Of a DNA stretch of 64,000 bases, positions 21,971 to 54,460 are shown piece by piece (the stretch's first letter is position 1; every line of letters begins with the position of its first letter). Location of the stretch: the NCBI RefSeq assembly GCF_030397575.1, contig NZ_JAPNXS010000009.1, forward strand, positions 62,001-126,000. Reading direction: 5' to 3'. The notes under the pieces were generated by a model that did not search any database, had not been told where the DNA came from, and saw nothing but the letters and a program-made list of their open reading frames with translations. The translations under genes were made by a program, and so were the position numbers. This DNA comes from Psychromonas sp. 14N.309.X.WAT.B.A12. Lineage in GTDB: Bacteria; Pseudomonadota; Gammaproteobacteria; Enterobacterales; Psychromonadaceae.

Positions 21971-22222
21971 TAAACACCTCTAATACCAATTACATTAAAT
22001 AAGTGATCTAAATTTTGCGCAGGAAAAATGACTGAGTTCAAGGCGTAATTTGAGCCTTTCGAAGATTAACTTCGTTAAAAGTCTATCGGAGAATTAACCA
22101 AAAGAAGTTAATTCTTTAATAGTTATTCTATTTGCGAAAATTACAACGAAGGAATAAGTTATTTTAACAAGTAAAATAGATCAATTAATTATTGTGATTG
22201 GTATAACCTTGAGAGGTGTTTA
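21971..22222. other. Terminator-like hairpin arms split by a repeat element
   Basis: TAAACACCTCT (21971-21981) and AGAGGTGTTTA (22212-22222) are perfect 11-bp complements just downstream of roxA and between converging genes. The 230 bases between them are the dispersed repeat plus a few bases such as AACCTTG. The natural reading is an original short-loop terminator into whose loop the element inserted. Confidence 0.65.
21983..22204 (+). repeat. Dispersed MITE-like repeat, copy A (complete)
   Basis: This 222-bp non-coding element begins ATACCAATTACATTAAAT and ends GTGATTGGTAT, so its tips are inverted repeats (ATACCAAT/ATTGGTAT). It aligns along its whole length with copy C at 54242-54460 (reverse orientation) and with an internally shortened copy B at 31037-31199. 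Flanking TAA on both sides, if TACC...GGTA is taken as the element, suggests a short target duplication. It encodes nothing, so it would need a transposase from elsewhere. Confidence 0.8.
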
Positions 22223-29713: not shown

Positions 29714-30625
29714 CTAGGTTGTTAATGAAGGCTTTCGTTGCACCATCGTACTCGCTGCAACTAACGTAACTGCACCGAGTAGTTGAATTTGAGTCATTTC
29801 CACATTTAAAAATAGCCAATTTATTAAGATTGCCGCCACCGGGAAAAACATTTCAGCTAAGGTAGCCCAATGCGCAGGTATACGCTTTAACCCTTGGTAA
29901 TAACAATACATCCCCAAGACACCAGACAGCACAGCTAACATGGCAATTTTTTGTAGCACGGTTAACTCAATACTAGTTATCAAACTCGGTGTAATAAAAG
30001 CAAAAGGCAACATACCAAGTAGGCCAAAACTAAAACGCCCGGCCATTAAATCTAAGCTACTAAGTCCTTGGGTACTCAGTTTTTTACCAAATACCGTTGC
30101 ACTTCCCCAGCTCACAACAGCAAATAAAGCGAGGCCATAACCCCATAATGCTTTTTGTCCATGCTGTAAATCCCCCTCTTTAAAATCGGCTAATAACACT
30201 TGGAAGTCAGGCCAAATCAATAACAAACTGCCTAAAATAGCTAATCCTAACCAAAGGAAAAACCGAGAATCTATTTTTTCCTTCAATAAAACACAGGCGA
30301 GTGTTACCGCAACGAGTGGCTGTAACTTTTGTAGCAAAATAACCACAGTAGGGTTAGACAAATAGAATGCTTCGGTAAACGCTAAGGTACCTAAAGCAGA
30401 GCCAAAAAAACCAATCACTAAAAAAGGGATGAAGGTTTGTCGAGAGATGAAGTTAAATTTACGACGTTTAAATAAAAAGATGCCAGCTAATACAGCAACT
30501 AATATTAAATGCTCAAACAACACAATTTGTTGTGCGCTGGAGCCGCCAAATAAAAGAGGATAACGTATCAATGTATCTGCGGCCCATAATAAGCACGCAA
30601 AAAATATAAAGGTAATACCTGTCAT
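29714..30625 (-). CDS. ribN: RibN-like EamA transporter, probable riboflavin importer
   Basis: 303 aa with ten hydrophobic helices in two EamA repeats (about 3-135 and 150-295), starting MTGITFIFFACLLWAADTLIRYPLL. AGGA lies six bases before the ATG. The fold alone does not give a substrate. The assignment rests on the FMN riboswitch about 300 bases upstream on the same strand with no other gene between. RibN, an EamA-family riboflavin importer, is known under such riboswitch control in Rhizobium and Vibrio. The function is therefore inferred from regulation plus family, not from a binding motif. Confidence 0.7.
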   Translation of the reverse strand: MTGITFIFFACLLWAADTLIRYPLLFGGSSAQQIVLFEHLILVAVLAGIFLFKRRKFNFISRQTFIPFLVIGFFGSALGTLAFTEAFYLSNPTVVILLQKLQPLVAVTLACVLLKEKIDSRFFLWLGLAILGSLLLIWPDFQVLLADFKEGDLQHGQKALWGYGLALFAVVSWGSATVFGKKLSTQGLSSLDLMAGRFSFGLLGMLPFAFITPSLITSIELTVLQKIAMLAVLSGVLGMYCYYQGLKRIPAHWATLAEMFFPVAAILINWLFLNVEMTQIQLLGAVTLVAASTMVQRKPSLTT

Positions 30626-30921
30626 TACAATTCCTAAACTAAAAAGGAGAGAAAGACAGAGCTTGGAAAGAACGTTATACCGCCCACATCATTAACCATT
30701 CCATTTATTTTCTGGAATAGTTTCATTAAGGCTAACGGTATTATTCAATAGTTGTAACACTAAAGAACTGAATAAATAACTGACAATTTTGCAGTATAAC
30801 CTGCCCTCATTGGAATAATGAAGATCAACAATTTCTGTAAGGGATCAAGTTCATGTCCCCAATTATCGTATTAAAACGATAGGGTCGAATAGTTGATATT
30901 TTGCACGCTATTTACTCTCGA
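30626..30921 (-). other. Long leader between riboswitch aptamer and transporter gene
   Basis: Nearly 300 bases of untranslated leader. A hairpin of CCCTATCGT/ACGATA...GGGG type (30857-30884) follows the aptamer, and a smaller ATTCCA/TGGAAT hairpin lies nearer the gene. Neither has a proper T tract nor covers the ribosome binding site, so I cannot say how the expression platform works. Short ORFs exist but none has a good start signal. Confidence 0.45.
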
Positions 30922-31250
30922 TCTTCTTCCATCCGGACTATAACCGTCGGATTTGGCCTCTCACCAAATCTGCTGACCCTAATAAAGCTATTACTAGTAA
31001 TAATTAGGCGCTCGTGGGCTCTTTTACTGATACCTAATACCAATTATATTAAATGAGAGATCTAAATTTTGTGTAGAATAAATGATTTAGTCCAAGAGAT
31101 AAGTTGAGGTAAATGGTTATTCCCTTTACCAGACTTACAACGAAGCAATAAATTATTTTTAACAAGCAAAACAAATCAATTAATTAGCGTGATTGGTATA
31201 CATATCGTAAAAATACCACCGGTGGGGAATTACACCCCGCCCTGAAGTCG
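30922..31250 (-). promoter_or_regulatory. FMN riboswitch (RFN element) interrupted by a repeat
   Basis: Read on the minus strand, the conserved blocks occur in order: CTTCAGGGCGGGGTG, AATTCCCCACCGGTGGT, GAGCCCACGAGCG, GGGTCAGCAGAT, then TCCGACGGTTATAGTCCGGA and TGGAAGAAG, with the outer P1 stem CTTC/GAAG. These match the RFN consensus closely. Between GGTGGT and GAGCCC, where a variable stem-loop is usual, 163 bases of the dispersed repeat are inserted at its tip. The flanking arms (31022-31032 and 31203-31212) still pair with one bulge. It precedes the RibN-like gene and should reduce its expression when FMN is abundant. Confidence 0.92.
31037..31199 (+). repeat. Dispersed MITE-like repeat, copy B (internally deleted)
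   Basis: Starts ATACCAATTATATTAAAT and ends GTGATTGGTAT, with the same ends and subterminal sequence as copy A (for example GATCTAAATTTTG and AATCAATTAATTA), but about 60 bases shorter in the middle. It lies inside the FMN riboswitch, antisense to the riboswitch RNA if copy A orientation is taken as plus. Flanks are TAA on the left and TAC on the right. Confidence 0.78.
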
Positions 31251-31425
31251 AATGACTTAACTTGTTATATCAATAACAGTGATTAAGTCATTGCTCATCA
31301 TAATAAGGATTTTAAAAAATACAAGAAAAATGCTTAAGATCACATTTTCTGCGGAGAGATAAAAGTAAAGAGAGAAACCAAAAGACAAATAACCCAAAGC
31401 TATTAGTTCAGAAACCTCAAACTCT

Positions 31426-32172
31426 CTATTGATTGGTCCAAATAGTTGGATTAGATTCAAATATCAAATTCGGTGTTTTTACAAATAATTGTTTAGCACA
31501 TTCATCGCCAAGTTGATTCGCCACGGCTGAAAAAGCTTCTTTCATTTTAGAAGGCCGACGATTAACATTATGCATATCTGAGGCAACTATAGTAACTTCG
31601 TCTTTTTGTAGTAAATCCCAAACTAGTTCCTTAGATCTTTCACCAAAATCCCCCACTATCGAAGCTGCAGTGACTTGAAATAAACAACCACGCTCTTTAA
31701 ACGGAGCTAACAATTCAGGAGACTCCCAAACGCCTCTGTTACGCTCAGGGTGTGCAATCATCGGCATAATGTTATGTGCCAATAACCAATCAACTAACTT
31801 TTCACTACCGGGTGGGATATGGCTGTGCGGGAACTCTAATAATAATAAGCTGTAACCTTGCCATTTCCCCATAAAAGGTAATTGTTGAGTGCTAGCCAAC
31901 ATCATAATTTCAGGACAAATTCGTACTTCCGCGGCATAAGCAAGAGAGAGTTTTTGAGAGGAGGAACTTTCACTAACAGAAGAAACAAGCTTGTTAAAAG
32001 CGTGCTTGATCGTAGTTAAATCATTATCAAAGGTGCCTAAATGAATATGCGGTGTCGCTAATATCTTTTGCACACCGCTGTTTGTAGAACCTTCAATTAA
32101 TTGCAGAGAATCAACTAAGGAGCGAGCCCCATCATCAATTCCTGCTAATATATGACTGTGTAGATCAATCAT
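31426..32172 (-). CDS. PHP-family protein-tyrosine phosphatase (CpsB/YwqE type)
   Basis: Metal-dependent phosphatase that removes phosphate from the tyrosine autokinase controlling polysaccharide length and export. The start MIDLHSHILAGIDDGARS carries the first metal-binding motif (HSH). Later metal ligands sit in TPHIHLGTF, MIAHPERNRG and ASDMHNVNRRPS. At 248 aa it matches CpsB/YwqE rather than the low-molecular-weight Wzb type. It follows the kinase gene by 27 bases, as the last gene of the export operon. Confidence 0.88.
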   Translation of the reverse strand: MIDLHSHILAGIDDGARSLVDSLQLIEGSTNSGVQKILATPHIHLGTFDNDLTTIKHAFNKLVSSVSESSSSQKLSLAYAAEVRICPEIMMLASTQQLPFMGKWQGYSLLLLEFPHSHIPPGSEKLVDWLLAHNIMPMIAHPERNRGVWESPELLAPFKERGCLFQVTAASIVGDFGERSKELVWDLLQKDEVTIVASDMHNVNRRPSKMKEAFSAVANQLGDECAKQLFVKTPNLIFESNPTIWTNQ

Positions 32173-54203: not shown

Positions 54204-54241
54204 AAATATCCTTATTAAAATTGAATAGATGTCAGGCTACT

Positions 54242-54460
54242 ATATCAATCATACTAATTAACTGTTCTATTTTACTTGTTAAAATAACTTATTTCTTCGT
54301 TGTAAATTTCGTAAGGGAACTGCCATTAAAGAATAAATACTTTTTCTTTCATTCTTCGACAGACGATCAACGAGGTTAATCTTAGCAAGGCTCAGTTTAT
54401 GCTTTAAACTAGTTTATTTTTCCTGCCCAGAGTTTAGATAGCTTTATTTAATATAATGGC
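54242..54460 (-). repeat. Dispersed MITE-like repeat, copy C
   Basis: 219 bp, in reverse orientation to copy A. It matches the complement of copy A along the whole length, for example TTTTACTTGTTAAAATAACT, TTCTTCGTTGTAA, GTTAATCTT and TATTTTTCCTGC, with roughly three quarters identity by eye. The ends have drifted: it begins ATATCAATC and ends AATGGC. It lies 38 bases upstream of the binding-protein start codon. Confidence 0.8.

Follow-up and report, generated by a model that had tools for sequence, protein, structure and literature searches.

An FMN riboswitch with a MITE in its P3 arm upstream of an EamA-family transporter gene in Psychromonas

The closest described system is the FMN riboswitch, or RFN element (Rfam RF00050), with which the locus studied here shares the conserved sequence blocks, helices P1 to P6, a membrane transporter gene downstream and the known site for an optional helix in the T-loop of P3. 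In the available text of PMC2258182 (Barrick and Breaker), P2, P3 and P5 are capped by T-loops into whose triloop an additional helix is sometimes inserted, and many riboswitches are said to tolerate long insertions at particular sites. The Psychromonas riboswitch differs from RF00050 in possessing a P3 arm of 195 nt, in deriving the extra length from a mobile element, and in the loss of a predicted pair between P3 and P5.

Mobile elements within leaders and structured RNAs have precedents. In the leader of the pneumococcal trp operon, a BOX element, likewise a MITE-like repeat, is co-transcribed between two T-box riboswitches, which the authors inferred to be still functional (PMC3049150, accessible portion); BOX sits between two aptamers, whereas the Psychromonas MITE sits inside one arm of a single aptamer. 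Small palindromic mobile elements are likewise present in the Rickettsia genes for tmRNA and RNase P RNA, where they are thought to be possibly neutral, but those hosts are a translation/processing RNA and a ribozyme, whereas the host here is a ligand-sensing riboswitch (PMC2229807, accessible portion). With ERIC, RUP and NEMIS, bacterial MITEs with terminal TA treated in the same portion of PMC2229807, the Psychromonas family shares small size, terminal inverted repeats, multiple copies and the lack of an ORF of 80 aa; unlike them, it was not found under any published name in the literature searched. In the part of the MITE review PMC10969869 that was available, riboswitches are mentioned only as speculation, and no transposon or MITE inside a riboswitch aptamer was encountered in the titles and abstract openings searched, a coverage outside which most subscription journals lie.

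The window referred to below is the whole 64-kb stretch of Psychromonas DNA analysed. Our preferred reading, to which a probability of about 0.8 is assigned, is that an FMN riboswitch in this window received a MITE in its P3 arm, and that the aptamer core folds as before and most likely still senses FMN.

Riboswitch halves, leader and transporter gene

At the gathering cut-off of RF00050 (66.2 bits), no match was obtained across the 64-kb window. A permissive E-value Rfam search of 30700-31500 matched the family twice, both on the minus strand: 31119-31253 (22.6 bits, E 0.0086), well aligned over the 5′ half of the aptamer, and 30917-31065 (47.8 bits, E 1.2e-9), well aligned over the 3′ half. 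That both half-matches fall below 66.2 bits is attributed to the insert splitting the aptamer; the seven uninterrupted orthologous riboswitches described below scored 99.9 to 106.4 bits. Conserved sequence blocks and helices P1 to P6 were all present, every helix forming in the folding model. The minus-strand stretch 31253-30917 is a real FMN riboswitch interrupted in its P3 arm. A riboswitch on this strand had been claimed by the first-pass annotation, and the two half-matches together with the orthologs bear the claim out; the covariance-model check proposed with it failed at the gathering threshold and recovered both halves in the permissive search. An interrupted riboswitch can drop below the Rfam cut-off and escape notice, as at this locus.

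Read along the minus strand, the 5′ half (31202-31253), delimited by its RF00050 half-hit and by alignment with the seven orthologous riboswitches, comprised the 5′ strand of P1, the P2 hairpin, the 5′ strand of P3 and the 5′ arm of an optional P3 extension. It was followed by a left target-site copy GTA (31199-31201; the family form is TWA, and one base differs from the right copy), a 161-bp insert with the ends TACCAAT and ATTGGTA (31038-31198), a right target-site copy TTA (31035-31037), and the 3′ half (30917-31034; half-hit of 47.8 bits) with the 3′ arm of the P3 extension, the 3′ strand of P3, P4, P5, P6 and the 3′ strand of P1. The limits of the insert were set by genome-wide matches, a family consensus and empty sites. 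The host P3 hairpin was retained, 31203-31212 pairing with 31022-31032 around one bulged A, the same arms and bulge as had been noted at first. The P3 T-loop is interrupted here by the optional helix, and the insert occupies the tip of this helix, so that its earlier assignment to the tip of a variable P3 hairpin agrees with a known optional helix.

Among 76 distinct aptamers parsed by pattern from 89 loci (13 unparsed; mostly best-scoring, 22 from Psychromonas), the P3 arm had a median length of 18 nt and a next-longest value of 86 nt, versus 195 nt in the window. Surveys of 394 genomes of the order and 369 of the class, both of them samples passed through stricter filters that lose weak matches, gave RF00050 matches in 239 genomes (three with only sub-cut-off hits among the matches listed) and in 41 genomes (one, G720, with only sub-cut-off hits), respectively. 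Several unusual FMN riboswitches were observed on the way. One from Psychromonas genome G001 (locus L045) had a P3 arm of 70 nt, in which the MITE consensus gave no BLAST match. In G260 of the order (L093, 1475-1540 and surroundings), the P4 arm measured 131 nt and contained 3.9 copies of a 17-nt unit, and arm length may thus vary there; in G353 (L094, 1251-1700), P3 was minimal and the P4 arm measured 145 nt, and the three genomes searched contained no further copy of this arm at E < 0.05. G201 carried the 5′ half of an FMN riboswitch with no 3′ half recognisable by eye (L095), a possible remnant, and the sub-threshold FMN-riboswitch-like sequence of G720 (L186, 200-640) was split, with both variable arms long and an altered region before P5. 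None of the interruptions in G260, G353, G201 and G720 was shown to be a transposon.

Downstream of the riboswitch, the remaining leader (30626-30916, minus strand) led to its presumed target, a gene on the same strand for an EamA-family transporter of 303 aa (29714-30625; PF00892, E 6.2e-34), the reading frame of which was open and evolved with dN well below dS. An FMN riboswitch preceded the EamA gene in all eight orthologs, from which the protein is probably a riboflavin transporter. Several riboflavin transporters have been found through FMN riboswitches, and gammaproteobacterial RibN orthologs are described as lacking the riboswitch (PMC4418817, accessible portion); the EamA gene of the window may accordingly belong to ImpX or another group. 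In the alignment of the eight leaders, a pyrimidine-rich and Shine-Dalgarno-like block near the start codon (30626-30680) was nearly invariant, unlike much of the leader, and possibly represents the regulatory end of the riboswitch. Pairing of the 3′ strand of P1 with the block before the start codon was matched by 59 to 146 of 300 simple shuffles in seven of the eight leaders (59 in the window) and by 14 of 300 in L051; a downstream switching element was not demonstrated by this test on eight leaders, a result counted against the preferred reading. The same genome possesses a second, intact FMN riboswitch (L001, 112.5 bits) upstream of a 232-aa ORF, which we take to be ribB-like.

The insert, its repeat family and the empty sites

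The insert had been described as a mobile-element-like repeat copy of 163 bp, a description that holds in kind and nearly in size (161 bp as measured). Matches to it were found in at least 49 places of its own 3.77-Mb genome, a single copy in some cases accounting for two of them; 40 of the 94 initial candidates were scored. A consensus of 164 bp, built from the 22 near-full-length copies (the window copy included) among 30 fetched, matched 40 places in the same genome and was detected in 23 of the 24 Psychromonas genomes examined (E <= 1e-6). The 22 aligned copies were 77 to 95% identical to the consensus and the window copy 83.5%. The family ends in the inverted repeats TACCAAT/ATTGGTA, the consensus ends matching over about 28 bp with mismatches, and no listed ORF of at least 80 aa touches the insert. 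Target duplications of the 3-bp form TWA agreed in 10 of the 16 copies with both ends readable, versus an expectation of 5.2 when the partners were shuffled (10 or more in 33 of 10,000 shuffles); six of the 22 copies were dropped from this count, and some ends, e.g. those of L016 and L023, were perhaps misplaced. The duplication of the window copy itself is imperfect (GTA/TTA, two of three bases), a point against the preferred reading. By its sequence, the insert is one copy of a non-autonomous, multi-copy MITE family.

Two other copies of the family lie in the window, at 21980-22205 and from 54241 to 54327 or 54457, with a diverged middle. Target sites of the form TNA are linked to IS5-type elements. 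A search of five Psychromonas genomes with the transposase profile PF01609 gave 13 matches, one of which (L141) sits among MITE copies, and no complete parent element with matching ends was recognised among these matches. A promoter or a terminator inside the MITE was considered and rejected, as 30600-31420 contained four promoter-like sites (3.1 expected) and no terminator (0.4 expected). The test for a conserved RNA structure in the family gave a consensus energy of only -2.5 kcal/mol from 16 sequences that included a mis-cut, non-aligning row (L101). At 38 other loci of the MITE, scanned over about 1.5 kb on each side where present, only two tRNAs and no riboswitch were found.

An EamA ortholog (E <= 1e-60) was present in eight of the 24 Psychromonas genomes, and the riboswitch upstream was uninterrupted in seven of the eight. 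In the nearest relative, Psychromonas sp. B3M02 (G014), whose EamA protein is 90% identical (dS 1.28, dN 0.06), the P3 tip reads straight through. Since seven of the eight orthologous sites are empty, parsimony makes the insert the derived state, probably gained in the window lineage after its split from the B3M02 lineage, with loss elsewhere as the less likely alternative. The comparison with relatives, by which the first-pass annotation proposed to judge the insert, thus yielded seven orthologous sites without it, which shows the 161 bases to be no regular component of the riboswitch. That they might nonetheless represent a lineage-specific long P3 arm sharing sequence with intergenic repeats, and not mobile DNA, would accord with the long insertions tolerated at specific sites and the extra helices that FMN T-loops can hold (PMC2258182, available text), as well as with the P3 arms of 70 to 86 nt and P4 arms of 131 to 145 nt in other genomes. 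This idea is hardly credible, being already refuted by the family copies and the empty sites: the insert follows a multi-copy consensus, is bounded by the family termini and is missing from all seven orthologous positions.

Related elements were also seen in B3M02. Adjoining the orthologous P1 on its upstream side (G014:C13; L189, about 528-570) is a short element (about 41 bp) whose ends, by eye, are likewise TACCAAT...ATTGGTA, one end only being recovered by BLAST; it is apparently a separate insertion of a related element near the same site. Many MITE copies with equal match scores are located at contig ends of this assembly, e.g. C80:4-166 and C152:4-166, suggesting recent activity that broke the assembly.

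Folding and conservation of the aptamer core

Folding was modelled from energies that take in neither tertiary structure nor FMN. In the minimum-energy fold, P3 continued through the host hairpin into the terminal repeats of the MITE, giving 26 pairs in total, the extension of the arm by terminal inverted repeats that had been put forward as a possibility. The insert left the pair probabilities of P1 to P6 unchanged at two decimals (mean core-pair probability 0.80 in its presence and in its absence), and the comparison called for at the outset thus showed no effect on the modelled core helices. Of 100 dinucleotide-shuffled inserts, 11 preserved 95% or more of the mean core probability, as did 18 of the 100 random segments taken from the window and 21 of 28 constructs carrying 14 other MITE copies in both orientations; with the pairs of the P3 extension included, the observed mean was reached by none of 200 shuffles and none of 198 window segments. 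By these comparisons, the MITE is predicted to insulate the core better than random sequence. The core was retained in 31 of 40 constructs with the MITE ends kept and the interior shuffled, and still in 18 of 40 with the ends shuffled, the latter counting against the preferred reading; the ends would therefore contribute to the insulation and not be its whole reason. When the MITE was moved along the riboswitch, 6 of 56 sites retained the core, namely those in the P2 loop, the P3 tip, the P4 tip and the P6 loop. It is suggested that small elements tend to fold shut on themselves and that insertion at a hairpin tip can thus spare a core. Fold stability was not unusual (z -1.25 for the whole RNA and -1.46 for the insert), which likewise weighs against the preferred reading.

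A different fate is suggested by the predicted arm itself, i.e. cleavage by RNase III, after which any remaining aptamer activity would come from two fragments joined through P1 and the core, and the MITE would also set the stability of the transporter mRNA. The 26 pairs are interrupted by small bulges; a helix of 26 pairs is long enough for RNase III, and a two-piece aptamer would be comparable to fragmented rRNAs. RNase III has been proposed to act on the hairpins of transcribed NEMIS MITEs (PMC2229807, accessible portion). Much of the arm, however, is A-U rich and bulged, and such cleavage is considered quite improbable.

Of the 121 nt of the core, 120 were identical to those of the nearest relative, and two to four differences separated the window from the other six orthologs, an extra A in L046-L048 having been collapsed before counting. 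At most one core change without selection has a probability of 8e-9 if the age of the insert equals the tree branch (0.165, an upper bound), and of 0.03 with a lower estimate from the private changes of the MITE (7 in 160 columns). Private changes in the core (1/121) and the MITE (7/160) did not differ significantly (Fisher p 0.14), a result counted against the preferred reading. With 120 of 121 nt identical despite a gene dS of 1.28, the core has probably, though not provably, been under selection after the insertion.

The sole private core substitution lies at 30951 (minus strand), directly 3′ of P5, where the window has U and all seven orthologs have G; G occupies this position in 75 of the 76 parsed aptamers. 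In the model of PMC2258182 (available text), a base pair is predicted between the nucleotide directly 3′ of P5 and the 3′ bulge in the T-loop of P3. This T-loop corresponds in the window to A-G-C at 31018-31020 (minus strand), with the C at 31018 as the bulge. The predicted cross-arm pair is C-G in 74 of the 76 aptamers; L164 has G.G instead, and the window has C.U. In the window, the U-A pair of the P3 T-loop can form, as can G-C, the other of the two pairs predicted with the P5 flank. Thus, through G to U at 30951, the MITE-bearing arm would have lost a predicted core contact, a link that was noticed post hoc. The earlier statement that the core is untouched is correct for 120 of 121 nt and fails at this predicted contact. 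The change fits early decay, or a constraint relaxed by the new arm; the pair is also missing from the natural aptamer L164, which suggests that it is not strictly required.

Early decay would mean that the MITE disabled the riboswitch, leaving the transporter without FMN control or unexpressed, with 30951 as the first mark of a dying relic. The only private core change does affect a nucleotide that hardly varies, and with it a predicted contact to the insert-bearing arm is lost, and the second intact FMN riboswitch in the genome (L001) might make loss here tolerable. However, the core has kept 120 of 121 nt while the MITE copy differs from its consensus by 16.5%, every core helix is intact in the model, the transporter reading frame remains open and its dN lies far below its dS, and L164 likewise does without the P3-P5 pair. 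Decay is therefore regarded as rather unlikely.

Proposed course of events and implications

According to the preferred reading, a 161-bp MITE would have jumped into the P3 arm upstream of the EamA gene in one Psychromonas lineage, after the split from B3M02. It would have landed in the optional T-loop helix of P3, a place at which length already differs among FMN aptamers. In the RNA, the terminal inverted repeats are predicted to pair and to stack on the host helix, producing one sealed arm that would leave the aptamer core free to fold as before. FMN sensing would be retained, perhaps with altered kinetics or affinity, in view of the predicted 26-pair P3 helix with its long loop and of the loss of the pair predicted to join the P5 flank to the T-loop of P3; by this model, switching may have been retuned by the lost pair. 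It is also conceivable, and on balance unlikely, that the insertion remodelled a working riboswitch, in that the long self-paired P3 relaxed or replaced the contact between the P3 T-loop and P5, leaving the riboswitch retuned, or in two pieces if cut. If this were true, riboswitch arms would be able to grow longer and more diverse by way of mobile elements.

The locus represents a natural insertion experiment in an RNA that binds a ligand, the seven empty sites serving as matched controls, and through it the importance of the predicted P3-P5 contact in FMN aptamers can be tested directly. It suggests that small mobile elements could be domesticated as RNA arms.
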